DNA of 64,000 nucleotides. Source: Desulforhabdus amnigena (GTDB taxonomy: Bacteria; Desulfobacterota; Syntrophobacteria; Syntrophobacterales; Syntrophobacteraceae). Numbering within the stretch: the stretch's first letter is position 1; each line of letters begins with the position of its first letter. The translations under genes were made by a program, and so were the position numbers. The notes beneath the pieces are model-generated. The model was not told the DNA's origin, did no database searches, and worked only from the letters and a program-made list of their open reading frames with translations. Shown piece by piece: positions 37,983 to 52,005 of the stretch. The stretch covers positions 647,001-711,000 of the forward strand of contig NZ_BSDR01000001.1 of the NCBI RefSeq assembly GCF_027925305.1, read 5' to 3'.

Positions 37983-38446
37983 CTATACCTCCTTTGAAAG
38001 AGTCCAAAAGTATGCTCCAGGTTGATGTTAAGAAACTCTTTATTGTCAAAGTGCGAAAAATAGGCTTAGCTTTCAAGCCACTTCTTCCCTTGAAAGAGAG
38101 AATAAGTTTCCTTCTCCCTACAGAGATCATGCATACGAAAATGTGCACTGCCCTCACCTCTAGGCACATGGCTTACATTTGGGGTGTATAAGCATCGAGA
38201 ATTATTAAACTCCATCATGCAGCACCCCATCCTGTGCATTCCCTTGATTGATGCTGGAGCCTCTCTCATTCCTCCCTTTAAGTCTTTCAATTAAATATTA
38301 AATAATATTGAATACTTATTAATGAAAACAATCATTTTTTTTTATTGGTACGAGCCTTGCTCATATTATTGCACAGGTAAAGCAACACAGTGTAATTACA
38401 TATTCTAATAGATGATATTTATATAATATGAAAAGGAGATATTAGT
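37983..38446. other. Divergent region between asnA and the peptide array
   Basis: 464 bp. The right half is very AT-rich (about 38280-38345), which would suit DNA bending before a sigma54 promoter. The sigma54-type promoter is at 38345-38361. The ribosome-binding site of the first peptide gene (AGGAG, 38434-38438) is at the right end. No activator site was identified with confidence. Confidence 0.55.
38345..38361 (+). promoter_or_regulatory. Sigma54-type (-24/-12) promoter of the peptide array
   Basis: TTGGTACGAGCCTTGCT fits the sigma54 consensus TTGGCACG-N4-TTGCW with one substitution. The invariant GG (38347-38348) and GC (38359-38360) are exactly 10 bp apart. Transcription would start at about 38372, 75 bp before the first peptide start codon. 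An enhancer-binding activator would be needed; none with an AAA+ domain lies in the window. Confidence 0.7.
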
Positions 38447-38539
38447 ATGAAAAAATTGGCATTGCAACTGTTTGTATTAGGATCACTGGTGGCATCTTAC
38501 GCACTTCCTGTACTGGCGTGTGGAGGCGGTGGCCCCTAG
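38447..38539 (+). CDS. Small exported pre-peptide, copy 1 (30 aa)
   Basis: A 30-residue frame missed by usual length limits. AGGAG (38434-38438) lies 8 bp before the ATG. The product is a textbook signal peptide (MKKLALQLF, then a hydrophobic core, then LPVLA) followed by only Cys-Gly-Gly-Gly-Gly-Pro. Cleavage after Ala24 by signal peptidase I would release a six-residue peptide with an N-terminal Cys. VLAC could instead act as a lipobox, giving a lipid-linked hexapeptide. This is the first of three copies encoding the same protein. Function is unknown. Its promoter type and the downstream peptide-binding protein suggest a signal. A small toxic or lysis-type lipopeptide is the alternative. 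Confidence 0.8.
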   Translation: MKKLALQLFVLGSLVASYALPVLACGGGGP

Positions 38540-38619
38540 TTGAATGTAAACACAGGTCAATATGTAGCATGTATCGTTTGCAAGCTAAACTCAATCGATA
38601 GAATTCCAGGAGAACAAAT

Positions 38620-38712
38620 ATGAAAAAATTGGCATTGCAACTGTTTGTATTAGGATCACTGGTGGCATCTTACGCACTTCCTGTACTGGCGTGTGGAGGC
38701 GGTGGCCCCTAG
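38620..38712 (+). CDS. Small exported pre-peptide, copy 2 (30 aa)
   Basis: Identical in DNA sequence to copy 1 over the coding part. Its ribosome-binding site is different: AGGAG at 38608-38612 in the spacer, 7 bp before the ATG. The same spacer also serves copy 3. Because each copy has its own good ribosome-binding site and no hairpin lies between copies, one transcript could make all three peptides. Confidence 0.8.
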   Translation: MKKLALQLFVLGSLVASYALPVLACGGGGP

Positions 38713-38792
38713 TTGAATGTAAACACAGGTCAATATGTAGCATGTATCGTTTGCAAGCTAAACTCAATCGATAGAATTCCAGGAGAACAAAT

Positions 38793-38885
38793 ATGAAAAA
38801 ATTGGCATTGCAACTGTTTGTATTAGGATCACTGGTGGCATCTTACGCACTTCCTGTACTGGCGTGTGGAGGTGGTGGCCCCTAG
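38793..38885 (+). CDS. Small exported pre-peptide, copy 3 (30 aa)
   Basis: Encodes the same 30 residues as copies 1 and 2, with one synonymous base change in a glycine codon of the Cys-Gly-Gly-Gly-Gly-Pro end. That the only change is silent hints at selection on the peptide, though one site is weak evidence. It is followed by unrelated sequence after the stop. Confidence 0.8.
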   Translation: MKKLALQLFVLGSLVASYALPVLACGGGGP

Positions 38886-39294
38886 TGATAAGTGCCTTGG
38901 CAAAATATTCTTAGGCTCTTTTCTTGTTGCCTTGGGTGCTGGCTTTCTGGTTTTTTAACTTTTATCCTAATAAGATATCATTCGGTTTGTTTGAGATAAC
39001 ATTGCAAGTGGGATAGAATTTTCAAAATGGCTATACGGCAAGGGAAAAACGATCATCTGTTGTTTGCAAATACTGGTAGGGTTAGTGTGCTCGCAAACAG
39101 GGCTTGTAGAGGAGCAACCTGGTAGTTCTAAAAAATGAAAATCTGCCGGGTTCTAAGAATAGAGGAGGCACGAATCGTCTTGGTTCGTGCTTTTTCTTTT
39201 TTGTAAAAAGTGCATTGTTTGGTATGAATGACCTGGGAGTTGGAGGAGAAGATAAAGAGATTCAAGAATTTTATTCTGAGGGAGGTGTATGACA
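38886..39294. other. Region between the peptide array and the peptide-binding protein gene
   Basis: 409 bp. The array transcript probably runs to the terminator at 39168-39202. TGTTTGC (39061-39067) and GCAAACA (39093-39099) form a 7-bp inverted repeat that may fold in the transcript. A 32-codon frame at 39027-39125 has no ribosome-binding site and is not supported. The last 90 bp must hold the promoter of the next gene; GGGAGG near 39280-39285 is its ribosome-binding site. Confidence 0.5.
39168..39202 (+). terminator. Rho-independent terminator after the peptide array
   Basis: GCACGAA (39168-39174) pairs with TTCGTGC (39184-39190) over a 9-nt loop. It is followed by TTTTTCTTTTTT. It separates the peptide array from the peptide-binding protein gene, so the two are transcribed as separate units or by partial read-through. 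Confidence 0.85.
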
Positions 39295-40929
39295 ATGAAA
39301 CACCTTTATTCACTCTTGATCATTTGCCTGGCAGTCGTGATGATCACCGTGAACCCTCTGATGGGCCAGATGAATGCCGAAGAGAGGCCGACATCGCAAA
39401 GCACTAATGCCAATAAAACCGAAAACCGTTACGGAGGCATATATAGAGCCCCTTTGCTGAACAATCCAAGTACACTAGATCCTGCATATGTTCAAGACAT
39501 GTATGGTGTAACCGTTGTTCAGCAACTTTTTGACGGTTTGGTTCAATTCAGCCCGGACCTGTTTGTGATACCAGCACTGGCCGAAAACTGGCAGGCGGAA
39601 GAAAGTGGCAAGGTCTATCGCTTTAGGTTGCGAAATGATGCACATTTTCATAATGGTAGGAAAATCGTTTCGCACGATATAATATTTTCATTGACTCGTC
39701 TTTTTCGCATTGATCCTCCCCCGGCTATTCTTCCCCATTTGCTTAGAATTTCAGGTGCCAAAGAGTATGCCGAAAAGAAATTGGAAACGATTTCAGGCTT
39801 GACCGCCGTGGATGATCGTACTCTTGTGATCCGGTTGGAAGAACCGTATGCACCTTTTCTCATTGCTCTCGGAATGTACCAGGCGAAGATTGTTCCTGCC
39901 GAGGAGTTGGAGAAGGGGGAAGATTATTTTGCCCATCATCCTGTGGGAAGCGGGCCCTTCAAGTTTTCCTCCTGGGAGGAGAATGAAAAGATCAAACTTG
40001 AAAAGTTCTCCGATTACTATGCCGGAAGCCCCTATCTGGATGGTATAGATTTCTTCATCTATCCAGGAGGTCAGCTGGACGAAGTTTTTGCTGACTTTCA
40101 GAAGAATGTTTTGGATGAAATGCCTGTTTATGGAAAAATTCGAGAGAGATTGGCGGTGGACAAGAACATCAAGATGATTCACCGTCCCTCATTGAGTCTT
40201 CTTTTCTACGGATTTAACTGTCAGAATCCTCGCTTTAAGGACCCCAGAATTAGAAAAGAATTGTCGGAGGCTCTTGACCGCCAGGAGCTGGTATCTCAAA
40301 TTTACCGTGGCCAGTTTGAAATCGCACGCAGTATCATCCCCCCAGGTTTACCGGGGTATCTTCCAGAAAATGAAAGAATTGAAAGAGAGAAGCGAAGGCG
40401 TTTCAAGGACCCTGGCGCCCAAGTTTCCGAAGAGTTGAAAAAAATAGGTCCGGTTGAAATCGTCTCAAATGTTCAATCGCCCTTTTCGCAGGCGGAGCTG
40501 AATTATGTCCGGGAATGCTGGGCCCGGCTCGGAATTTCTACAGACATAAAGTATATTACGAACTGGGCAGAGTTTGAGCGATATCTGAAATCCGACGGTC
40601 TGCAGATTTTTCGATATGCCTGGTTTGCAGACATTCCGGATCCGGACAATTTTTTACAACCCCTTTTTGCCAGTGACTCTCAAAACAATTTCATGCGGTA
40701 TAAAGACAATAAAGTCGATAAAATGCTGCGGGATGCGGTTGGAATGCTCGATCCCATAGCACGCGCTGAAATGTATCAGCAACTGCAGAGGACGATCCTT
40801 GATTCAGTCCCGATTATTCCCCTCTTGTATTTGAGTGTCGATTCGGCCTATCAACCTTTTGTCCAGGGCATCCAGGTGAGTCCCCTGGGAGCGCATACCA
40901 TGTCTTATCATCGTGTGTGGGTGAAATAG
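39295..40929 (+). CDS. Peptide-binding periplasmic protein (SBP_bac_5 / DppA-OppA family), orphan
   Basis: A 544-aa extracytoplasmic solute-binding protein of family 5. The start is the ATG at 39295, nine bases after GGAGG; the ATG at 39289 is too close to it. A signal peptide (core about 4-20) is followed by the family core: GGIYRAPLLNNPSTLDPAY, VVQQLFDGLVQFSPDL, LAENWQAEESGKVYRFRLR with HFHNG, HHPVGSGPFKFSSW, YFGFNCQ-like LLFYGFNCQNPRF, and DPDNFLQPLF. Such proteins bind oligopeptides for ABC importers. Here no permease or ATPase genes follow. Instead a sensor kinase gene starts 37 bp downstream, so a role in sensing a bound peptide is plausible. Confidence 0.9.
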   Translation: MKHLYSLLIICLAVVMITVNPLMGQMNAEERPTSQSTNANKTENRYGGIYRAPLLNNPSTLDPAYVQDMYGVTVVQQLFDGLVQFSPDLFVIPALAENWQAEESGKVYRFRLRNDAHFHNGRKIVSHDIIFSLTRLFRIDPPPAILPHLLRISGAKEYAEKKLETISGLTAVDDRTLVIRLEEPYAPFLIALGMYQAKIVPAEELEKGEDYFAHHPVGSGPFKFSSWEENEKIKLEKFSDYYAGSPYLDGIDFFIYPGGQLDEVFADFQKNVLDEMPVYGKIRERLAVDKNIKMIHRPSLSLLFYGFNCQNPRFKDPRIRKELSEALDRQELVSQIYRGQFEIARSIIPPGLPGYLPENERIEREKRRRFKDPGAQVSEELKKIGPVEIVSNVQSPFSQAELNYVRECWARLGISTDIKYITNWAEFERYLKSDGLQIFRYAWFADIPDPDNFLQPLFASDSQNNFMRYKDNKVDKMLRDAVGMLDPIARAEMYQQLQRTILDSVPIIPLLYLSVDSAYQPFVQGIQVSPLGAHTMSYHRVWVK

Positions 40930-40966: not shown

Positions 40967-42868
40967 ATGCAAAACTCGCCTCTCAAAATCAGAATTCTGA
41001 AATCACCCCGCTATATACCGCTGAGGTTTCGCTTTATTCTTCTCAGTTCCTTCCTGTTGATTCTGTTGCTCGGTACCATAACCGCTTTCCTGGTCGCTCA
41101 GCAAAGCCGAAGCATTCGCAGTCAAGTGGAGCGAAAAGGGTTGGCTATAGCACAAAGCCTGGCGGCGACCTCCAAGGTTGCTTTAGTTACCTATAACTAT
41201 ATCTCGCTTGAACAGTCGGCCAACGAGGCATCCAAAGACCCCGATATCATCTCTGTGATTATTCATGACAAGGAAGGGCGTGTAGCCGGATATAGCGGTC
41301 GTGTAGATTTACAGGGAAAGTTTTTGGATGATGAAGAAAGCCGGAAAGCTGTTTCCGCAACAGAACCATTGGCTCAGCAGGAGATTCTGGAAAATTTGAA
41401 GAAACCCGTGCTCGATACGGTGGTTCCCGTATATGTTCCCGGTTCGGATTTGCGCTGGGGAACGGTCCGGGTGATTCTATCGCTGGAACCGATGTACCAT
41501 CAACTCCGCTTGACTCAGTTGATCATTTTTGCCATTGGAACCGTGGCGCTTCTGTTTGGCATCCTTGTCTCAAGTCTAGTTGCACGAAGAATAACCCGTC
41601 CTTTGGGATATCTCACTCAGGCTACTCTGGAAGCGGCTCAGGGAAATCTGGATCAGAAGATCGATGTGCGCACCGGAGATGAAGTGGAGGTATTGGCCTC
41701 CAATTTCTCCAAAATGATAAAAGAAATCCTTGTACAAAAACAGCAGCTGGAAAATCAATTGGAAGAAATCCGGCATCTGCAGCGGTACACGGAAAAGCTT
41801 TTGACCACGATGAATGATGGTTTGCTTTCCGTGAACCATGGGGGAGCCGTTGCCACTGTCAACCCTGCGGCCTGCAGGTTGCTTGGCATAGATCCAGGGA
41901 TTGAACGAGGGACATCTGCTACAGAGGTACTGGAGCATGTCCCCGAGTTGCTTGAATACATACAAAGTAAACTTGAGAGTCCAGTCGGTGCTACTCAGCA
42001 GCAGATTAGGCTGACAAAACGAGCTGAAACACGGGTCATCCTCGCCAGCTGCAGTCCCCTTTTGAAGAGGGATGGTACTCTCGAAGAACTTATCACAAAC
42101 CTGCATGACATTACCGAGTTGAAAAAATTGGAAGCCCGCATTCGTCAGACAGAGAGGCTGGCTGCATTGGGGACATTGGCTGCAGGTATGGCTCATGAGA
42201 TTCGAAATCCCCTTTCTGCCATCAAAACATTTGTACAGTTGCTTCCACGGAAACTCGAAAAACCGGGCTTTCTGGAAAAATTCAATCGCACCGTGCCACG
42301 AGAATTGGAACGAATCAATCGACTGGTCGATGATTTGTTGGAATTGTCGAGAGATCCAAGATATCGTTTTGACTGGGTGGATATCAAATCCCTGCTGCAA
42401 CAGTGTGCAGAGTTGTTCGAAATGGATTTTAGGGCGGCTGACATTCGCTTTGAATTGCAGTTTTCTTCAGACATCCCTCTTGTGAGGGCGGATGCAGACC
42501 AACTTGTGAAAGCTTTTCAAAATCTCATTCGAAATGCTGTTCAAGCCATGTTGGGGGGAGGCTTTTTGAAGGTGGAAGCGTCGAGTGTCCTGGATAAGCA
42601 AAAAGAAGACGAGTATCAGCATCATGGCGGGTGGGTTTGCATTCGCTTCAAAGACACTGGACCCGGAATTCATGCGGAAGATTTCAAGCACATTTTTAAT
42701 CCATTTTTTACGACAAAGGATAGCGGTACCGGTCTCGGTTTGGCCATCACACACAAGGTGATTACCGAACATGGAGGACACATAGATGTTACGAGCAGCG
42801 TTGGAGCAGGCACTTGCTTTTCGGTTTATCTGCCTCACGAGAAGTTGGACCGGAAGGCTTTTTCTTGA
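40967..42868 (+). CDS. Membrane sensor histidine kinase
   Basis: A complete 633-aa kinase. Transmembrane helices at about 23-43 and 183-205 enclose a periplasmic Cache-like domain of about 140 residues. HAMP (about 205-258), PAS (about 272-385), HisKA with AGMAHEIRNPLS (His410) and HATPase_c follow, with N box NLIRNAVQAM, G1 DTGPGI and G2 GTGLGL intact. GGGGA lies before the ATG. The gene is 37 bp after the peptide-binding protein gene, suggesting one transcript. The periplasmic domain could read the loaded state of that protein, as LuxQ does with LuxP; this is inference. Confidence 0.93.
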   Translation: MQNSPLKIRILKSPRYIPLRFRFILLSSFLLILLLGTITAFLVAQQSRSIRSQVERKGLAIAQSLAATSKVALVTYNYISLEQSANEASKDPDIISVIIHDKEGRVAGYSGRVDLQGKFLDDEESRKAVSATEPLAQQEILENLKKPVLDTVVPVYVPGSDLRWGTVRVILSLEPMYHQLRLTQLIIFAIGTVALLFGILVSSLVARRITRPLGYLTQATLEAAQGNLDQKIDVRTGDEVEVLASNFSKMIKEILVQKQQLENQLEEIRHLQRYTEKLLTTMNDGLLSVNHGGAVATVNPAACRLLGIDPGIERGTSATEVLEHVPELLEYIQSKLESPVGATQQQIRLTKRAETRVILASCSPLLKRDGTLEELITNLHDITELKKLEARIRQTERLAALGTLAAGMAHEIRNPLSAIKTFVQLLPRKLEKPGFLEKFNRTVPRELERINRLVDDLLELSRDPRYRFDWVDIKSLLQQCAELFEMDFRAADIRFELQFSSDIPLVRADADQLVKAFQNLIRNAVQAMLGGGFLKVEASSVLDKQKEDEYQHHGGWVCIRFKDTGPGIHAEDFKHIFNPFFTTKDSGTGLGLAITHKVITEHGGHIDVTSSVGAGTCFSVYLPHEKLDRKAFS

Positions 42869-43360: not shown

Positions 43361-43723
43361 ATGAAAAACATTCAAGAAATATTTGTTGTGGACGACGACC
43401 AAGGCATATTGGATTCTTTTGATGCGCTGCTGGGAGATGATTACCCTCTTGCTATGTTCAATGACAGTTCTAGAGCCTTACGGTTGTTGTATGAAAAAAA
43501 TCCGCGTCTGCTTTTCCTGGATATCAAAATGCCGGGGATGAGTGGGATCGAAGTCCTCAAATGGATTCGGGACAAGAAGCTTGCCACCAAAGTAGTGATT
43601 GTAACGGCCTTGCCTCAATCCCATTATGAGGAATCCGCCCACCAGTACGGGATCTACCGATATCTGAAAAAACCGCTTGACATCGATGAAGTAGAGGAGA
43701 TCACGCGCGAAGCGTTGCATTGA
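43361..43723 (+). CDS. Single-domain response regulator
   Basis: A 120-aa receiver domain with no output domain. The acidic pocket is VDDDQ (residues 10-14), the phospho-acceptor is Asp54 in FLDIKMPGMSG, the switch Thr lies in IVTAL and the conserved Lys in YLKKPLD. AAGGAG precedes the ATG. Without a DNA-binding domain it must act by protein contact or in a phosphorelay, probably with the kinases on either side. The closeness to the kinase at 40967 and the receiver-kinase at 44040 supports that. Confidence 0.93.
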   Translation: MKNIQEIFVVDDDQGILDSFDALLGDDYPLAMFNDSSRALRLLYEKNPRLLFLDIKMPGMSGIEVLKWIRDKKLATKVVIVTALPQSHYEESAHQYGIYRYLKKPLDIDEVEEITREALH

Positions 43724-44039: not shown

Positions 44040-45218
44040 ATGGCAGATAGAGACACTCCCATTTTGATCATTGACGATGAACCATCGGTTATCGAAGGCC
44101 TCACAGAATTTTTGGATGACGAGGGTTTTGAAGTTCATCAAGCACTCGAAGGGAAAAGCGGTCTCGATGTCTTTCGCCAAGTGAATCCTCACCTTGTGAT
44201 GACCGATTTACGGATGTCCGGTATGTCCGGCATCGAACTGATCGGGGAAATTCGAAAGATCAATGCACACACCCCAATCATTGTCGTTACCGGATATGGT
44301 ACTCTGGAATCGGCCATAGATGCTATTCGGCTGGATGTCTTTGATTTTATCACCAAGCCTATTGATCTGAATTCTCTCAAGTCGACTCTCGATAGAGCCC
44401 GATCGTCCCTTCAGTCAGCGCGAGAAGTTCAGAATGAGATGCTGGATTTGCGCAACCAATTACAGGAATTTCAAGAGCAGTGGAAAGAACAATTGAAAAA
44501 GTTTTCCGAAGTTGAACCTCTGATTCATACGGGAAGGCTGGTTGCGGGAATTTTACACAATCTCAACAATCCCCTGACCTATATTATGGGACAGGCAGAA
44601 TTGTTGCAGCTTACCCATCCTGAAGTGGAGAATCTTGGCAGCATTAAGAACCAGGCTGTTCGCATGAAAAGAATCATGACGACCATCATGAAACGGGTGA
44701 AAGAATCGCAGACCCGTCAATCGGAATGGTTGCAGTTCAATGAAATCCTCCAGGAGGAAGTTTTTTTCCTCGAATCGCATCCTTATTTCAATGCCGATAT
44801 CAAAAAGGACTGGCAGTTAGCACCCGATCTCCCTGAGTTCAAGGGGATTGCTGCCGATTTTAGCCAAATTTTCGGCAACATCTTGAGAAATGCTGCCGAA
44901 GCGATGAAAGACGCACCCGTCAAAGAGGTCCTTCTTAAGACATGGCACGACAGTTCAGGAATCCATCTGATCATACAGGATACAGGGCCCGGTATTCCCA
45001 AGCCCTTGCAAGAAAAGGTTTTTCAACCCTTCTTTAGCACCAAATCGACCAGCATGGGTGCTGTAGGAAGCATGGGGATGGGAATTGGCCTGTATCACTG
45101 CAAGGAACTCATACGCCAGTATGGTGGCTGGATAGAATTGGAGAGCGAACCTGGACAGGGTGCCAGATTTATCATCCATCTTCCCCTTCACTTGTGTAAA
45201 TCTTCTTCTGACGATTAA
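44040..45218 (+). CDS. Receiver-histidine kinase hybrid protein
   Basis: A 392-aa soluble hybrid. Residues 5-120 are a receiver domain (acidic pair IIDDEPSV; Asp56 in VMTDLRMSGMSG; FDFITKPID with the conserved Lys). A coiled coil follows (about 120-160), then a HisKA-type segment VAGILHNLNNPLTYIMG (His173) and HATPase_c with G1 DTGPGIP and a G2-like GSMGMGIGL. It has no membrane segment or DNA-binding domain. It probably receives phosphate at Asp56 and passes or controls a signal by its own kinase. It closes the putative peptide-sensing cluster. Confidence 0.92.
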   Translation: MADRDTPILIIDDEPSVIEGLTEFLDDEGFEVHQALEGKSGLDVFRQVNPHLVMTDLRMSGMSGIELIGEIRKINAHTPIIVVTGYGTLESAIDAIRLDVFDFITKPIDLNSLKSTLDRARSSLQSAREVQNEMLDLRNQLQEFQEQWKEQLKKFSEVEPLIHTGRLVAGILHNLNNPLTYIMGQAELLQLTHPEVENLGSIKNQAVRMKRIMTTIMKRVKESQTRQSEWLQFNEILQEEVFFLESHPYFNADIKKDWQLAPDLPEFKGIAADFSQIFGNILRNAAEAMKDAPVKEVLLKTWHDSSGIHLIIQDTGPGIPKPLQEKVFQPFFSTKSTSMGAVGSMGMGIGLYHCKELIRQYGGWIELESEPGQGARFIIHLPLHLCKSSSDD

Positions 45219-45480
45219 GATCTCAACATTCACAGAAAAACTTTATTCAATCCCATCTTGCGGTTTATGTAAATTCCTGGGCGGACTGCTGACCGGGGGC
45301 TCATAAAAGGCAAGAGGGGAGAGGGGGAGATCTTTGTGCTTGCGATGGTTGATCATTTCACTTTCGTAGAGGCGGCGTCCCCTCCTGCGATTAAAGATGG
45401 TCGCGGTGGGGACTCAGCTGCTACATGATGGCCAAAAGTCTTTATCCGTGTAAAGCATGTGTTTGAAAAGAGAGGAAAAT

Positions 45481-46662
45481 ATGAATTCTAAAGAATTCCA
45501 GCTGGGGTGTGAAGTCTTTCTTCAAGATCCTCCTTCATGGTTTCGGAATCGACGCCTAGGATTGTTGGTGAATCAAGCTTCAGTCAGCCAATCTCTGGAG
45601 CATGTATCGGATCTGATCCTCTCGGCTGAAGGGAACTTGACTTGCCTTTTTTCTCCGCAACACGGTTTCTATGGGGAAAAACAAGCGAACATGCGGGAGT
45701 CGTCGGATGGTTGGGATTCGTTTCGTGGGGTTCCCGTTTTCAGTCTTTACGGCGATGTTCGGCAACCGACACCAGAAATGCTTGAGAGGATCGATGTGCT
45801 TTTGATCGATCTTCAGGATGTAGGAACGAGGGTTTATACATATGCCATAACGATGGGGCTGTGCCTTGAATCTGCCGCAAATGCCGGAATCAAGGTAGTG
45901 GTGATGGACAGACCCAACCCTATCAATGGGAAACAGATCGAAGGCAATTTGCTGCGAGAAGACCATCGCTCATTTGTGGGACGCTATCCCATTCCAATGC
46001 GGCATGGGCTTACCATGGGAGAAATGGCCCGTTATATGGTCAGAAAGTGTCATATTCCGTGTGACTTGGAGGTCATTCCCCTTAAAGGATGGCGGCGGAG
46101 AGATTTTTTCCCCGAGACAAAAATGCAGTGGGTCTTCCCATCCCCTAACATGCCTTCGTGGGAGACTGCATTGCTCTATCCTGGAATGGTGCTCCTCGAG
46201 GGTACAAATGTGAGTGAAGGGCGTGGAACGACCCTTCCATTTCATATATTTGGTTCCCCATTCTTGGATCAAAAAAAATTTAATGATTGTTTGAAAAGAT
46301 CCGAACTAAAAGGTGTCTTTTTCCGCCCCATTTGTTTTGAGCCTGTCTTTGATAAATATGTTGGTGAGTTATGTTACGGTTTCCAGATTCATATTACGGA
46401 TCGGAAATCGTTTCGTCCTTACCGATTGGGGCTGGTCTTGCTTGAAACATTCATTCATGTGCATGGAGACGATTTTCGTTGGACTCCTCCACCTTATGAA
46501 TACGAATGGGAAAAACTCCCTATCGATATTCTGTTGGGTGATGGAACGCTGAGGAAAAGGCTTGAGGATGGGGCAGACATTAAGGAATTGGAATCAGGAT
46601 GGGAGCAAGAGCTCAGGGCGTATCGGAGCGAATGTAAGGATTGCCTGCTTTATCCCGAATAA
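45481..46662 (+). CDS. DUF1343 family protein, NamZ-type exo-beta-N-acetylmuramidase
   Basis: A 393-aa protein of the DUF1343/GH171 family. The B. subtilis member NamZ (YbbC) removes N-acetylmuramic acid from the non-reducing end of peptidoglycan chains. The start is the ATG at 45481 behind AGAGAGG. Family segments: FRNRRLGLLVNQASV, LFSPQHGFYGEKQANM, DVLLIDLQDVGTRVYTYA, VVVMDRPNPINGKQIEGN, LEGTNVSEGRGTTLPFHIFG. No signal peptide is visible, whereas the B. subtilis enzyme is exported. It would feed muropeptide recycling together with the mpl, ldcA and serine hydrolase genes 10 kb away. Confidence 0.88.
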   Translation: MNSKEFQLGCEVFLQDPPSWFRNRRLGLLVNQASVSQSLEHVSDLILSAEGNLTCLFSPQHGFYGEKQANMRESSDGWDSFRGVPVFSLYGDVRQPTPEMLERIDVLLIDLQDVGTRVYTYAITMGLCLESAANAGIKVVVMDRPNPINGKQIEGNLLREDHRSFVGRYPIPMRHGLTMGEMARYMVRKCHIPCDLEVIPLKGWRRRDFFPETKMQWVFPSPNMPSWETALLYPGMVLLEGTNVSEGRGTTLPFHIFGSPFLDQKKFNDCLKRSELKGVFFRPICFEPVFDKYVGELCYGFQIHITDRKSFRPYRLGLVLLETFIHVHGDDFRWTPPPYEYEWEKLPIDILLGDGTLRKRLEDGADIKELESGWEQELRAYRSECKDCLLYPE

Positions 46663-46882: not shown

Positions 46883-47548
46883 TCAATGCAACAGGTTCCC
46901 GATGCGATTCCAACGAATGTAGCTTTCTGTTGGGTTCCACGTCAGTTTTCCATCCCCGTTCCACGACCAGTATATGATAAAGGCTTCACCTTTTAGTTCG
47001 TCCATGTCGACGAATTTCCAGAAGCGACTGTCAAAACTTTCATCTCGATTGTCGCCCATAACAAAAAGGCTGTGGGGAGGAATTAAAATCGAATCCATAT
47101 TGTCTCTTGGACTGACACTTGCAGGCAAGATCCTGGGATCGCTGTGAACGACATAGGGTTCAACAAGAAGCTGGTCGTTAACATAGACTTTCTTGTCCTG
47201 TATCCGAACGGTATCCCCCGGAAGGCCAATGACCCTTTTAATGAAATCCTTGGAAGGATCTACAGGATAGCGAAAAACAACAATGTCCTTTCGCTCCGGG
47301 TCTCTAAAATGCAGCAGCTCTTTGTTGAGGATCGGGAGTTTGATACCGTAGACGAATTTATTGACGAGGATATGATCTCCGACGAGCAGGGTGTTTTTCA
47401 TGGAACCGGATGGAATTTTGAATGCTTGCACGACGAAGGCCCTGATCACCAGAGCAAGTAGGACGGCAATAATGATAGCCTCGGCATATTCTCTCAACAA
47501 GCTTTTTGAACTGTTTTTCTCTACTTCGTTTTCTTTTGTGCGGTGCAA
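46883..47548 (-). CDS. lepB: Signal peptidase I
   Basis: A 221-aa membrane serine protease that removes signal peptides. A single N-terminal membrane helix (about 22-42) precedes the catalytic Ser in KIPSGSMKNTL. The catalytic Lys is in DFIKRVIGLPGD, and VMGDNRDESFDSRFW is box E. The start is a TTG at 47548 behind AGGAGGG. It is divergent from pilM (150 bp). It could process the CGGGGP pre-peptides if they are not lipoproteins, though it surely serves all secreted proteins. Confidence 0.95.
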   Translation of the reverse strand: MHRTKENEVEKNSSKSLLREYAEAIIIAVLLALVIRAFVVQAFKIPSGSMKNTLLVGDHILVNKFVYGIKLPILNKELLHFRDPERKDIVVFRYPVDPSKDFIKRVIGLPGDTVRIQDKKVYVNDQLLVEPYVVHSDPRILPASVSPRDNMDSILIPPHSLFVMGDNRDESFDSRFWKFVDMDELKGEAFIIYWSWNGDGKLTWNPTESYIRWNRIGNLLH

Positions 47549-47698
47549 TTTCGAACCCTCCTGTAGAAGTTTAAGATACTTTCACTTAGCCTTTTAATTT
47601 AATTCGTTTCGGTCAAGTTTACAATCGGTGATGGTAAAGTGGAAAAGCAGTTAAAAGTCAATCAAAACCTTCGGCCGCTCTTGGAGTGATACTTCTCT

Positions 47699-48751
47699 AT
47701 GTTCGGTAAAAAAGAGAATATAATCGGTTTAGATATAGGTTCTCACGCCATCAAGATCATCCAGTTGGAAGAGAGAGACTCCAACCTGAAATTGCTGAAT
47801 CTTGGTGTTATTCCTATCCCTAAAGAGGCGTTTGGCGAAGGGAGAATGACTCGGCCCGAGTTGGTTGGGCAATGCATCCAGCGGCTGGCGTCTAATTTGA
47901 AGATTAAGGACAAGATCGTCTCCTGTGCGGTTTCCGGTTACGAAGTCATGATCAAGAAGCTTGAACTGCCGATGATGACAGAGGATGAACTCGGTTCGAG
48001 GATGCAGACGGAACTGAGGCAATACATTCCTTACAACATCGAAGAAGTGGACGTGGATTATCAGATCCTGGGGCTTGCAAAAGAGCGTCTCAATTATATG
48101 GATGTTCTCCTGGTTGCTGCCAAGAAGGAATCCATTCGAGAGTATGTCGGCCTGCTGGAATCTGCAGGATTTCAGACCGCGGTTTTGGATGTGGACTTTT
48201 TCGCCTTGTGCAATGTCTTTGAAGCGACATACGGTTTCGGCGAGGAAAGTATTGTCCTATTGGATATAGGAGCAAATAAGGCGTTGATGAATATCATCAA
48301 CCGTGGAATTCCCGTTTTTACACGAGGTTTATCCATCGGAGGAAATCAGATCACCGAGAGGATTCGTCAGACTTTCCGGAATTCTTATAATGAAGCGGAA
48401 CGCATAAAACTCGGAGAACTGACAGAAGATGTTTCCAAGAAAGAATTGGAAGAGATATTCACTTCGATAGTCAGGAACTGGGTAGCCGAGTGTAAAAGGG
48501 CTATTGACTTTTATTACAGCAACTATCCGGAGAACAAAATCGAAAAGGTGTTCCTAAGTGGAGGATCATGCACTATTCCCGGACTTGAAAGGGTTTTTCA
48601 GGAAAACACGGGTGTGGCTGTGGAAGTCTTTAATCCTTTAACTAAAGTCTCATCTGATCCCAAGACTTTTGATCCTGAATATTTGGACCAGATTGGACCC
48701 CAAATGGCTATTTCATTAGGCTTGGCCCTAAGAAAGACCAAAGAGAAATGA
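47699..48751 (+). CDS. pilM: Type IV pilus assembly protein PilM
   Basis: A 350-aa actin-like ATPase on the cytoplasmic side of the type IV pilus alignment complex. It begins NIIGLDIGSHAIKIIQLEE (phosphate-1 motif). The PilM core includes SCAVSGYEVMIKKLELP, ELRQYIPYNIEEVDVDYQIL and the second phosphate motif VLLDIGANKALMNI. FLSGGSCTIPGL is the adenosine motif. A GGAG lies before the ATG. The stop overlaps the pilN start by 4 bp. Confidence 0.96.
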   Translation: MFGKKENIIGLDIGSHAIKIIQLEERDSNLKLLNLGVIPIPKEAFGEGRMTRPELVGQCIQRLASNLKIKDKIVSCAVSGYEVMIKKLELPMMTEDELGSRMQTELRQYIPYNIEEVDVDYQILGLAKERLNYMDVLLVAAKKESIREYVGLLESAGFQTAVLDVDFFALCNVFEATYGFGEESIVLLDIGANKALMNIINRGIPVFTRGLSIGGNQITERIRQTFRNSYNEAERIKLGELTEDVSKKELEEIFTSIVRNWVAECKRAIDFYYSNYPENKIEKVFLSGGSCTIPGLERVFQENTGVAVEVFNPLTKVSSDPKTFDPEYLDQIGPQMAISLGLALRKTKEK

Positions 48752-49341
48752 TACAGATCAATTTACTTCCGGTCCAGACCAAGAAGAAGAGGGAAACTGT
48801 AAGGCAGTTCCTTTCCATCTATTTGGCAGGCATATTTCTGACGGCTGGAGGGATGGGATACTTGTGGTATTCCAAGGCAAATCAGATCGAGTCCTTGACT
48901 GCACAGGAATCTCAATTGCAGGTAGAAGTGAAAAAATACTTGAAATTCGAACAGATGCTCAAGGATCTCACCAAGAGAAAAGAACTGGTCGACAAAAAAC
49001 GCAGTGTGATTGATGGCCTTCAGAAAGATCGAGATACGATAGTCCGGATGCTTGCGCTGCTCAGTGTAGAGTTGCCTGCAGACAAAATGTGGTTCGAACG
49101 GTTTAGCCAAAGTGCCGGTACCATCACATTGGATGGCTTGGCCTTGAGCAATGAGGCGATTGCCGAGTTTATGAGAAACTTACAGTCTTCTCCTTATGTG
49201 ATCAAAGGTAGTGTAAATTTGACGCATTCGCGTCAAACCTTAATCAGTAATATGAAGCTCAGGGAATTTCAAATCAGTTACCAGTTTATTCCTTACTCTC
49301 AACTGAAAACACAGCCACAGCCAGAGACGCAAAAACCATGA
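48748..49341 (+). CDS. pilN: Type IV pilus assembly protein PilN
   Basis: A 197-aa inner-membrane protein. The N-terminus MIQINLLPVQTKKKRE is the cytoplasmic segment that binds PilM. A membrane helix at about 22-43 is followed by a coiled coil (about 48-100) and a ferredoxin-like periplasmic domain ending in a proline-rich tail. It overlaps both pilM (4 bp) and pilO (4 bp), showing tight operon structure. Confidence 0.94.
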   Translation: MIQINLLPVQTKKKRETVRQFLSIYLAGIFLTAGGMGYLWYSKANQIESLTAQESQLQVEVKKYLKFEQMLKDLTKRKELVDKKRSVIDGLQKDRDTIVRMLALLSVELPADKMWFERFSQSAGTITLDGLALSNEAIAEFMRNLQSSPYVIKGSVNLTHSRQTLISNMKLREFQISYQFIPYSQLKTQPQPETQKP

Positions 49342-49961
49342 GAATGCAATTCCTTGAACATGCGACGGTAAACGAGAAGATTTCATCACTGACCCTTGTT
49401 CAAAAGATTTTGCTCTTTGCAGGGACCTTCATTGTGTTGACGGGGGGGTTTTATTTTCTCGTCTATAAGGAACAGCTGGAGACGGTTCAACGCCTGGAAA
49501 GCAGTATTTCCGGTCTTGAAAATCGCCTGGCGACTCTGAAGAAGGCTGCACAGCAGGTCGAAATCCTTGAAAAGCAGCTTGCGGAGTCTGAAGAGAATTT
49601 TTCTCAATTGCTGGCACTTCTTCCAGATCAGAAGGAAATTCCTGCGTTGCTCGATAGTGTTTCGGAACTTGGCGCACAGGTTGGACTGGAAAACATTCTC
49701 TTCCAGCCTCAGGCGGAGCAACCTCGAGAATTTTATGCGGCCATACCCATCCGATTGGATCTTCTCGGCACGTACCACGAAGTGGGGAGCTTTTTTGACA
49801 AGGTCAGCAAATTGAACCGTATTCTCAAAGTTCAAAATGTCAGCATGACGCGTCAGAAACCGTCATCCGTCCTTAAAGTTGACTGCACTATAGAAACATA
49901 TCGTTTTGTGGATACACCCCTCCAGGGGGATGGGGTTGCAAAGCAAGCAGGTAAGAAATAG
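49338..49961 (+). CDS. pilO: Type IV pilus assembly protein PilO
   Basis: A 207-aa inner-membrane protein that pairs with PilN. A membrane helix at about 25-44 is followed by a coiled coil (SSISGLENRLATLKKAAQQ, about 56-95) and a periplasmic domain with PREFYAAIPIRLDLLGTYHEVGSFFDKVSKLNRI, a strong family segment. It ends in a basic tail and the next gene, pilQ, begins 88 bp later. The usual pilP gene is not found in between. Confidence 0.94.
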   Translation: MRMQFLEHATVNEKISSLTLVQKILLFAGTFIVLTGGFYFLVYKEQLETVQRLESSISGLENRLATLKKAAQQVEILEKQLAESEENFSQLLALLPDQKEIPALLDSVSELGAQVGLENILFQPQAEQPREFYAAIPIRLDLLGTYHEVGSFFDKVSKLNRILKVQNVSMTRQKPSSVLKVDCTIETYRFVDTPLQGDGVAKQAGKK

Positions 49962-50049
49962 GCAGATATTGCTCGTGAAGGTAGGGGGCGCCGGAGGGCA
50001 AATATCGGAGCTTTTGTAAAGAGGTAAGAGCAGCGAAAGAGGGGGAAAC

Positions 50050-52005
50050 ATGTATAGATTCTTGCGAGGTACGAAAAGCTCTTGTATTGGTGCTATCGTC
50101 CTTCTGCTTGTTTGGGGATGTGCCGGAACGGGTACGGTGGGAAGCAATCAAAGTAATAACACCCTTCCGGGAGACCAGACAGTCGGGAATATGCCGCAGG
50201 AACCCATGGGTGCACCTAAGGCGACCGTCAGCCTTCTGAAAGTTGATGTTCTGGATGATGTCGTGACGACGATGGTGCGAATCGGGGCCAGCAGCCCACT
50301 GCACGACTATCGGCTTGAAAAATTGGGAGAAGATGAATTTTCGCTCGATCTTGCGGATATCACGGATCGGATCAATTTGCCCGTTCTCCCCGACAGCTCA
50401 GAGAAAGTGATGTTACGATACTCCGAATCGCGATCTCCTGGAGGAATCCAAATATTGGGGACTCATCACCGGCCTCTTGAAAACTACATATTGGATAGTA
50501 TCGGAAATGAGCTCATCCTGACCTTATATTTTAAAAATGACGATAGCCCTGTGTTGCCCTCCCCAGTAAAAGCTTCCTGGAAATCCGCTCATGACCGTTC
50601 TGACAGCCCTGAATTGAAGACGATGAACGTTTCTGCTACAAAAGGACCGGCCGTTTTGGGGGATTCGATGAAAACCTCCGCAAATCGATGTGCTCCCTCC
50701 GCGACGGACAATATATCCCTTCCAGGTACTGAAACTTCTTCTTTGACCGAACCGCAACCCTCTACAAAAATGTTTCAAAAGCAGTATACCGGCAAACCCA
50801 TCAGCCTGGATCTCCTGGACGCCGATGTGAGGAATGTGTTGCGGCTTCTTTCCGACATCACAGGCAAGAACATCGTGATTGAACCGGATGTTGCGGGCAA
50901 GGTGACCTTGAAAGTTGAGCAGGTTCCCTGGGACCAGATTCTGGACATGGTTTTGGCCATGAATGATCTGGGGAAGGAACAGGTCGGAAATGTCATTCGC
51001 ATTGCCAAGAAGGGGAAGCTGAAGGATGAGTGGGCTCAAAAAGCTGAAGAAATCCGTGCCAAACAAGAGCTTCAAGAGGTCGCGAAAGACGTTGGAGAGA
51101 TCGGCACGGTTTACTTTACAGTCAACTATGCACTGCCGCAGGATATTGCAGCCAAGTTATCGGAAAGCAAGAGCGAACGGGGTAAAGTCTCTATCGACGA
51201 ACGAACCAGCCTGATCATCTATTCCGATTATCCTTCGCGCGTTGAAAACGCGAGGCATCTTCTGGCCCGCTTGGACAAACCAACACCTCAAGTGCTCATT
51301 GAAGCCAGGATTGTCACTCTTCGCACTCAGGCTTCCCTGGATCTGGGAATCGACTGGAGCCTGTCGACAGAGCATACGACTGTGGACCCCGGCCTTACTC
51401 AAAATTACCAAATCAATATTCCTTCAGCGGGTCCATCCTCTTTTGGGCTCGAGCTCGGCCAATTGATCGGAAAGACTTTTTTGCAAGTCAATGCGGCCAT
51501 TTCGGCGCTGGAAACGTCCCAGGACCTTAAGGTCATCGCTGCACCCAAAGTGCTCACTCTCGACAATGTTGAAGCGGAGATTTCACAGGGAACTCAAATA
51601 CCTTATCAGAACTTCAGTGGTGCCGATGTCAATGTGACCACTACCCAGTTCAAGGATGCGGTTGTGGAATTGAAGGTTACGCCCCACATTACGCCTGACC
51701 AGAAGATCAGGTTGAAAATTCAAGCCAAGCAGGATGAACCAGGTACGGAGTATAATGGGCAGGCATCCATCGATACACGCAAGATCACCACGGAACTGCT
51801 TGTAGATGATGGGAACGTCATCGTGATCGGTGGAGTCATGCGTGATAGGGTAGATACGAGTACGAATGCAACACCCGGTCTAAACAAGATCCCCCTGGTA
51901 GGAAGGCTTTTCAAGTCAGACAGTTCTAATACGGATAAGACTGAGTTGCTGATATTTATCAGTCCAAAGATAGTGGAGCCCCGGAAACGCGTTCAGGGGG
52001 CTTGA
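50050..52005 (+). CDS. pilQ: Type IV pilus secretin PilQ
   Basis: A 651-aa outer-membrane secretin forming the pilus gate. The N-terminal signal ends at LVWGC (Cys24), which may be a lipoprotein site, though Trp at position -2 is unusual. An AMIN-like domain follows (about 55-160), then a Ser/Pro-rich linker. The STN/N0 domain is about 240-325 (GKPISLDLLDADVRNVLRLL, then GKNIVIEPDV) and N1 about 345-420. The secretin pore region (about 420-645) has VLIEARIVTL, AAPKVLTLDNVEAEISQGTQIPY and VIGGVMRDRVDT. GAAAGAGGG lies before the ATG. Confidence 0.95.
   Translation: MYRFLRGTKSSCIGAIVLLLVWGCAGTGTVGSNQSNNTLPGDQTVGNMPQEPMGAPKATVSLLKVDVLDDVVTTMVRIGASSPLHDYRLEKLGEDEFSLDLADITDRINLPVLPDSSEKVMLRYSESRSPGGIQILGTHHRPLENYILDSIGNELILTLYFKNDDSPVLPSPVKASWKSAHDRSDSPELKTMNVSATKGPAVLGDSMKTSANRCAPSATDNISLPGTETSSLTEPQPSTKMFQKQYTGKPISLDLLDADVRNVLRLLSDITGKNIVIEPDVAGKVTLKVEQVPWDQILDMVLAMNDLGKEQVGNVIRIAKKGKLKDEWAQKAEEIRAKQELQEVAKDVGEIGTVYFTVNYALPQDIAAKLSESKSERGKVSIDERTSLIIYSDYPSRVENARHLLARLDKPTPQVLIEARIVTLRTQASLDLGIDWSLSTEHTTVDPGLTQNYQINIPSAGPSSFGLELGQLIGKTFLQVNAAISALETSQDLKVIAAPKVLTLDNVEAEISQGTQIPYQNFSGADVNVTTTQFKDAVVELKVTPHITPDQKIRLKIQAKQDEPGTEYNGQASIDTRKITTELLVDDGNVIVIGGVMRDRVDTSTNATPGLNKIPLVGRLFKSDSSNTDKTELLIFISPKIVEPRKRVQGA

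Follow-up and report, generated by a model that had tools for sequence, protein, structure and literature searches.

Three tandem genes of only 30 codons each in the genome of Desulforhabdus amnigena are interpreted here, with moderate confidence, as encoding the precursor of a short secreted peptide that acts in a self-activating signalling circuit. The genes lie within a stretch of 64,000 nucleotides that was analysed as a whole and is called the window in the following. Comparison of genomes establishes, at the level of sequence, the gene family, its coding nature, its promoter sequence, its linkage to a sensory cassette and the co-inheritance of both. The three genes are:

38447..38539, forward strand: micropeptide gene copy 1; signal peptide of 24 aa plus CGGGGP; Shine-Dalgarno AGGAG at 38434..38438
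38620..38712, forward strand: micropeptide gene copy 2; own Shine-Dalgarno at 38608-38612
38793..38885, forward strand: micropeptide gene copy 3; own Shine-Dalgarno at 38781-38785; one synonymous difference

Each copy measures 93 bp with its stop codon, its 30 codons specify the same product, MKKLALQLFVLGSLVASYALPVLACGGGGP, and the copies follow one another as tandem repeats with a start-to-start distance of 173 bp. An AGGAG Shine-Dalgarno sequence stands 7-8 nt 5' of the ATG in all three, and the statement of the initial annotation that there are three identical 30-residue genes, 173 bp apart and with their own ribosome-binding sites, is confirmed from the sequence. Copies 1 and 2 including their spacers are completely identical over 173 bp, while the sole change in copy 3 is a synonymous Gly codon (GGC/GGT). 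The leader of copy 1 is not homologous to the spacer 5' of copies 2 and 3, both provide a ribosome site, and the homology between the first and the last copy is limited by the start codon and the stop codon. The genome search revealed exactly these three copies and none elsewhere in the genome. Since copies and spacers are nearly identical, the triplication is a recent amplification of DNA, which alone says little about coding; that the genes are real follows from their conservation in other genomes. For a decayed fourth copy, also considered for the interval from copy 3 to the terminator, similarity did not rise above that of shuffled sequences.

Micropeptide homologues (E < 1e-3) were found in 20 of the 148 genomes searched, the own genome included, and extra members of the f13 family emerged when 395 genomes of the phylum Desulfobacterota were searched with a profile. 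The pattern YxxP[VA]xAxGGGGx-stop was furthermore scanned over the genomes of 84,980 species, and all true matches with named hosts belong to Desulfobacterota, with the limit that the pattern requires GGGG-x-stop and would miss f13-like tails elsewhere. The named hosts are Desulforhabdus sp. TSK from the genus of the window, Desulfoferrobacter suflitae, Desulfobacula and Desulfotignum; several MAGs of Syntrophobacteraceae and Desulfobacterales are further hosts. Candidate homologues from Rhizobiaceae, Paracoccus, Spirochaetaceae, Clostridia, Bacteroidia, Rhodobacteraceae and Geodermatophilaceae were rejected as chance similarities, as they have no matching signal peptide, and none of the pattern matches checked outside Desulfobacterota has the cassette neighbours described below. 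In total, the family comprises approximately 30 Desulfobacterota genomes with one to four copies per genome and the consensus MKKIxxQLFVxGxxVAxYALPVLA-x-GGGG-x-stop. Tandem arrays of two to four copies exist in six genomes besides the window, two of them split over contig ends. In Desulforhabdus sp. TSK (L033:3652-4509) there are four micropeptide copies, one of which spans an N run in the assembly; assembly breaks inside arrays were seen in this locus, in G009 and probably in PL24a_bin.4, where the array is split over L093/L105.

Several features of this family indicate that the protein and not only the DNA is conserved. The pooled pN/pS of 0.19-0.43 reveals purifying selection, the Gly codons vary synonymously in three of the four groups, and the position of the stop is constant while all three stop codons are in use there. 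Broken frames and poorly conserved peptide ends in relatives had been named in the initial annotation as observations that would speak against it. The relatives checked have unbroken frames, they retain the Gly core and the position of the stop, and variation is confined to the residues flanking the Gly core. Hence, as far as sequence comparison goes, the genes represent a conserved microprotein family with a predicted signal peptide and an x-GGG(G)-x tail. Pfam gave no match for the micropeptide and NCBIfam only matches far below the cut-off.

The proposed 24-residue signal peptide proved sound. All 32 loci share A at -1 and P at -4; V or A stands at -3 and, apart from a single H, Y at -7, and no locus has P at +1. 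These residues correspond to a textbook site for signal peptidase I, which makes cleavage after PVLA probable on the grounds of sequence. Outside f13, the predicted tails read C/N/S/R/E/Q/A/T/G/V-GGGG-P/N/D/R/A/T/F/PW, and those in f13 are EGGGW, EGGGY, EGSGY, ESGGW and TGGGW. This amounts to 23 different tails of 5-7 residues and 400-632 Da, in which the Gly core is nearly invariant and the ends vary. The usual porin limit is about 600 Da, and the predicted tails are near this size. In the single genus g21, the tails QGGGGA, SGGGGT, EGGGGF and QGGGGP occur, and this change of end residues around a fixed core within one genus suggests the pattern that is expected of pheromone types.

According to the initial annotation, the hexapeptide could be lipid-linked through its N-terminal Cys and serve as a small antagonistic lipopeptide. 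The VLAC of members with Cys indeed resembles a loose lipobox, but position +1 has ten alternatives among the orthologues, in which N, S, R, E, Q, A, T, G or V take the place of Cys beside the same neighbours. Because the lipobox Cys is not conserved, a lipopeptide anchored by it, be it antagonist or pheromone, is refuted as a property of the family and extremely unlikely as an explanation of the locus. An antagonistic role also finds no partner genes, since there are no immunity or exporter genes and the neighbours are sensory. The wider claim that the micropeptide is secreted and probably a signal gained support, including the linked peptide-binding proteins treated below.

The signal region itself deserves attention. 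Its mean identity is 50%, compared with 47% for the mature peptide-binding protein encoded nearby and 21% for the signal peptides of this protein in the same loci, and with Y at -7 nearly and P at -4 fully invariant this conservation exceeds the demands of export alone. The signal peptide or the uncleaved protein may thus carry part of the function, which counts against our main reading. Two alternatives build on this observation. The micropeptide could be an uncleaved single-span membrane protein, which is induced by the regulator and tunes the kinase or the binding protein as MgrB does with PhoQ. Its probable regulator-driven expression next to a kinase would fit, as would the hydrophobic stretch with conserved Q/E at -18, Y at -7 and P at -4 and its 50% versus 21% identity. 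However, this proposal has to accommodate the signal peptidase I site (A at -1, V/A at -3, no P at +1) and a periplasmic tail of just 5-7, mostly Gly, residues, and it would leave the ever-present orphan binding protein with its Asp for the alpha-amino group unexplained; we regard it as unlikely, though as a serious contender. The other alternative, that a fragment of the signal peptide such as YALPVLA is released after cleavage and is the active pheromone, as known from enterococcal sex pheromones, appears very unlikely. It would explain why the signal region is unusually conserved, YxLPVLA most of all, and PrgZ, the receptor of the signal-peptide-derived cCF10, is a sequence relative of the binding protein (PMC7117660), but the fixed stop and the Gly core, invariant apart from the f13 serines, would remain without explanation.

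Downstream of the three genes, the window contains a sensory cassette:

39289..40929, forward strand: orphan peptide-binding protein of the SBP_bac_5 type (SBP), proposed receptor; Pfam PF00496, 3e-71
40967..42868, forward strand: sensor histidine kinase (sCache_3_2-like, HAMP, PAS, HisKA, HATPase); conserved 3' of the SBP
43361..43723, forward strand: single-domain response regulator; kept in most cassettes
44040..45218, forward strand: response regulator-histidine kinase fusion; a family-level part, present in L034, L037, L039 and L040

SBP and kinase are found downstream of the micropeptide in every relative whose contig continues, even at phylum level, and the gap between micropeptide and SBP is 59-720 nt in nearly all of these loci. 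In L040, the peptide gene and the longest SBP frame share 41 nt, and the kinase of L039 was located by tblastn at L102:1344-3218, where it is overlapped by a reverse ORF. The linked peptide-binding proteins that the initial annotation proposed to look for are thus present in every locus with a continuing contig. Among the 148 genomes, 20 have both micropeptide and SBP orthologue, two the SBP only, none the micropeptide only and 126 neither (Fisher p = 8e-23, calculated without relatedness correction); the two SBP-only genomes are explained by one contig end and one 35% paralogue. A conserved precursor with an export signal and a short C-terminal peptide is present in 32 loci, and a linked gene for a candidate receptor follows wherever the contig continues, both as would be expected of a pheromone system.

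The SBP shares both the PF00496 domain and an acidic residue for the alpha-amino group with the peptide-binding class of family 5. In comparison with PDB sequences, HbpA/DppA are its closest relatives, followed by OppA and, more distantly, PrgZ. Its D448 aligns with D408 of DppA and is Asp in all 25 orthologues that cover the site; Asp408 of DppA holds the amino group of the ligand in published structures. The AlphaFold model (pLDDT 83.5) has OppA with the PhrE pentapeptide as best Foldseek match, and many peptide-bound proteins are among the other structural matches, which, at the level of a model, demonstrate the fold of the SBP and not its ligand. Permease and ATPase genes, which would mark the SBP as an importer subunit, are absent beside it in the window and in relatives.

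Nevertheless, the linkage would be equally expected if the peptide were a mere output of the circuit, and this counts against the ligand reading. The SBP and kinase could then sense other things, for example murein or environmental peptides, and the product of the sigma-54 unit would be an effector peptide or a small RNA with dual function. In line with this, MppA and DppE, two binders of murein tripeptide, are also similar to the SBP, a NamZ gene follows in the f1 cassettes, and the unit is a separate short predicted transcript with its own terminator. Yet NamZ is absent from the f5 and f13 cassettes, selection acts at the protein level, no Rfam family was found and target or immunity genes are not linked, while the obligatory pairing with the SBP fits a ligand better. 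Altogether, we consider such an output function quite unlikely. The search for a known RNA family covering the unit returned one chance match far below the threshold.

The expression of the micropeptide genes is probably controlled by sigma-54 and an NtrC-type activator. The elements recognised around the genes are:

38346..38361, forward strand: sigma-54 (-24/-12) promoter TGGTACGAGCCTTGCT; score 20/21, with 0/200 shuffles as good
38130..38147 (G000:C1:685130-685147), forward strand: candidate enhancer (UAS) TGCATACGAAAATGTGCA; one mismatch from TGCACA-N6-TGTGCA
38233..38238, forward strand: second enhancer half-site TGTGCA; approximately 113 bp upstream of the -24 element
39162..39205, forward strand: intrinsic terminator GCACGAA...TTCGTGC plus T run; -19.6 kcal/mol, ends the micropeptide unit

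The pattern TGGYAYN5TTGCW matches 25 times in 4.5 Mb, the window promoter among them, and its reversed form 15 times. Every one of the 30 loci for which upstream sequence is available has a sigma-54 site of at least 18/21 before its first copy, mostly 75-135 nt from the ATG. The TGGYAY-N5-TTGC -24/-12 element occurs together with upstream dyads, as typical for promoters of the NtrC family. TGTGCA or TGCACA occurs within 220 bp upstream of the -24 element in 23/23 loci outside f13 and in the f13 loci L049 and L050, whereas chance would give approximately 10% per locus by a rough estimate; the half-site spacing of -100 to -115 recurs in most loci. Eleven enhancer-like sites exist in the own genome, and only that of the window adjoins a strong sigma-54 site. 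Hence, no further target of the regulator with an enhancer beside a strong sigma-54 site was detected in this genome, a search by which weaker sites could be missed.

In relatives, a gene for an NtrC-type sigma-54-activating response regulator is usually situated upstream of the micropeptide. These regulators form one orthologous group with 52-72% identity to the protein encoded at G000:C1:464300-465706 (L089:8289-9869) of the own genome, in which the next NtrC paralogue is 46% identical to the query used. In the own genome about 220 kb lie between the regulator gene and the cassette, a distance that counts against the circuit reading, and the old neighbour of the regulator, a 467-aa ORF, still adjoins it; a rearrangement has separated the regulator from the cassette. 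Five f13 loci (L084, L085, L086, L087 and L088) lack TGTGCA, most of them carry a dyad such as CTGCCAACAGTTGTTGGCAG, and in the same five the recognition helix of the regulator is altered, e.g. from RNTLxQK to RNYLIQK. This joint change of helix and enhancer supports control of the micropeptide promoter by the neighbouring regulator. The f13 family also provides a natural case of a regulator and its site changing together.

Hairpins comparable to the terminator of the window were recognised downstream of the last copy in 29 of 32 loci. The Gly-codon run followed by an intrinsic terminator, 26-56 nt further on in most loci, may bring to mind a ribosome-stalling leader that governs an attenuator before the SBP gene. 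This explanation is weak and can be given hardly any credence: antiterminator pairing was not above shuffles (1/25 loci at <=0.05), the tandem copies each have their own Shine-Dalgarno sequence, the export signal is conserved, f13 has Ser in place of Gly, and the terminator of the window lies 276 nt beyond the last copy. Equally weak is the view of the micropeptide as the type I toxin of a toxin-antitoxin pair, suggested by the small hydrophobic protein and the tandem repeats reminiscent of Ldr/Ibs. With a sigma-54 promoter and fixed signalling neighbours in approximately 30 genomes, a conserved Gly tail and no matching RNA family, a toxin seems barely plausible.

For the favoured signalling circuit we propose the following sequence of events. 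Sec would export the precursor, and signal peptidase I would cleave it behind PVLA to release CGGGGP of 446 Da, which should be small enough to diffuse through porins. In the periplasm, the SBP would bind the peptide, with D448 taking the alpha-amino group, and the peptide-loaded SBP would act on the sensor kinase. The kinase would then phosphorylate the NtrC-type regulator, relocated in the own genome, which in its phosphorylated form would bind TGCACA-N6-TGTGCA and open the sigma-54 promoter of the peptide gene, thereby closing an autoinduction loop. The residues flanking the Gly core, which vary between species, could set the specificity and the number of gene copies the dose. We tentatively go one step further and suggest that this may be the first system in Gram-negative bacteria in which a linear, gene-encoded peptide pheromone is made from a precursor dedicated to it, defined by a Sec-exported, porin-sized oligoglycine penta- to heptapeptide, an orphan OppA-type sensor with a kinase, autoinduction via NtrC-type regulator and sigma-54, and a constant Gly core flanked by species-specific ends.

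In Gram-positive bacteria, the use of ribosomal peptides for signalling between cells is textbook knowledge. The Phr proteins of Bacillus are short exported precursors giving a pentapeptide, and OppA with the PhrE-derived pentapeptide is the best structural match of the SBP; in the Phr system, however, the host is Gram-positive, the peptide is imported to act on cytoplasmic Rap proteins, and neither sigma-54 nor a kinase belongs to the receptor path. In the former deltaproteobacterium Myxococcus xanthus, the regulator SasR is NtrC-like. It is the partner of the kinase SasS, which senses the A-signal of extracellular amino acids and peptides (PMC4880591), so that a kinase with a partner regulator is used in peptide sensing as proposed here; the A-signal, however, is a mixture from proteolysis that has no dedicated precursor gene, and the description mentions no family-5 SBP. 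In the LuxP/LuxQ-LuxO system of Vibrio, a periplasmic binding protein passes the small signal AI-2 to a kinase and further to a sigma-54-dependent response regulator (PMC5394107), which is similar in logic. There the targets are Qrr small RNAs, whereas the present candidate signal is encoded by a gene that is itself the proposed target, the SBP belongs to family 5 and no HPt protein was seen. The pheromone cCF10, a ligand of PrgZ, corresponds to the seven C-terminal residues of a lipoprotein signal peptide (PMC7117660), again a peptide of few residues from a secreted precursor with an OppA-type binding protein. It differs by its Gram-positive host, its origin from the signal peptide and its Opp import to a cytoplasmic regulator, in contrast to the kinase and sigma-54 regulator without permease in the present case. 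Finally, MgrB, which is controlled by PhoP and inhibits signalling by PhoQ, is an inner-membrane peptide of 47 aa (PMC2789325), and likewise a tiny protein whose expression is induced by the regulator belonging to the kinase on which it may act; compared to our micropeptide, MgrB with its 47 aa stays in the inner membrane, has no partner SBP and differs in sequence and promoter class.

Thus, LuxPQ-LuxO with sigma-54, PrgZ/cCF10, the Myxococcus A-signal and MgrB come closest in logic, and the parts are of known kinds, while their combination was not found in the open-access literature searched. The same literature contained no comparable system in Gram-negative sulfate reducers or syntrophs, although a report in a subscription journal is possible. 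If the proposal is true, it provides an important group of anaerobes with a defined signal, open to chemical synthesis as a hexapeptide and to testing, and it adds a compact two-component system for the sensing of peptides. Even if the MgrB-like alternative holds, the micropeptides would constitute a new regulatory family whose conservation spans distant families of the phylum. In either case, a family of 30-codon genes is missing from two family libraries (Pfam and NCBIfam).

Some further observations concern relatives and surroundings of the cassette. Paralogues of the SBP in G081, G212 and G048:C40 are 35-37% identical and have no micropeptide. At L082:5384-9007 (G048:C40) and L081:8389-12181 (G212), sister cassettes of a kinase and a family-5 SBP exist in which no micropeptide was found, and these may sense another ligand. 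A gene for a NamZ-type exo-beta-N-acetylmuramidase (window 45457-46662) follows the cassette here and in several f1 relatives, which hints at a possible link to cell-wall turnover. Just past the cassette, at window 46883-52005, where no separate pilP was seen, there are apparent pilM/N/O/Q genes and a gene for signal peptidase I.
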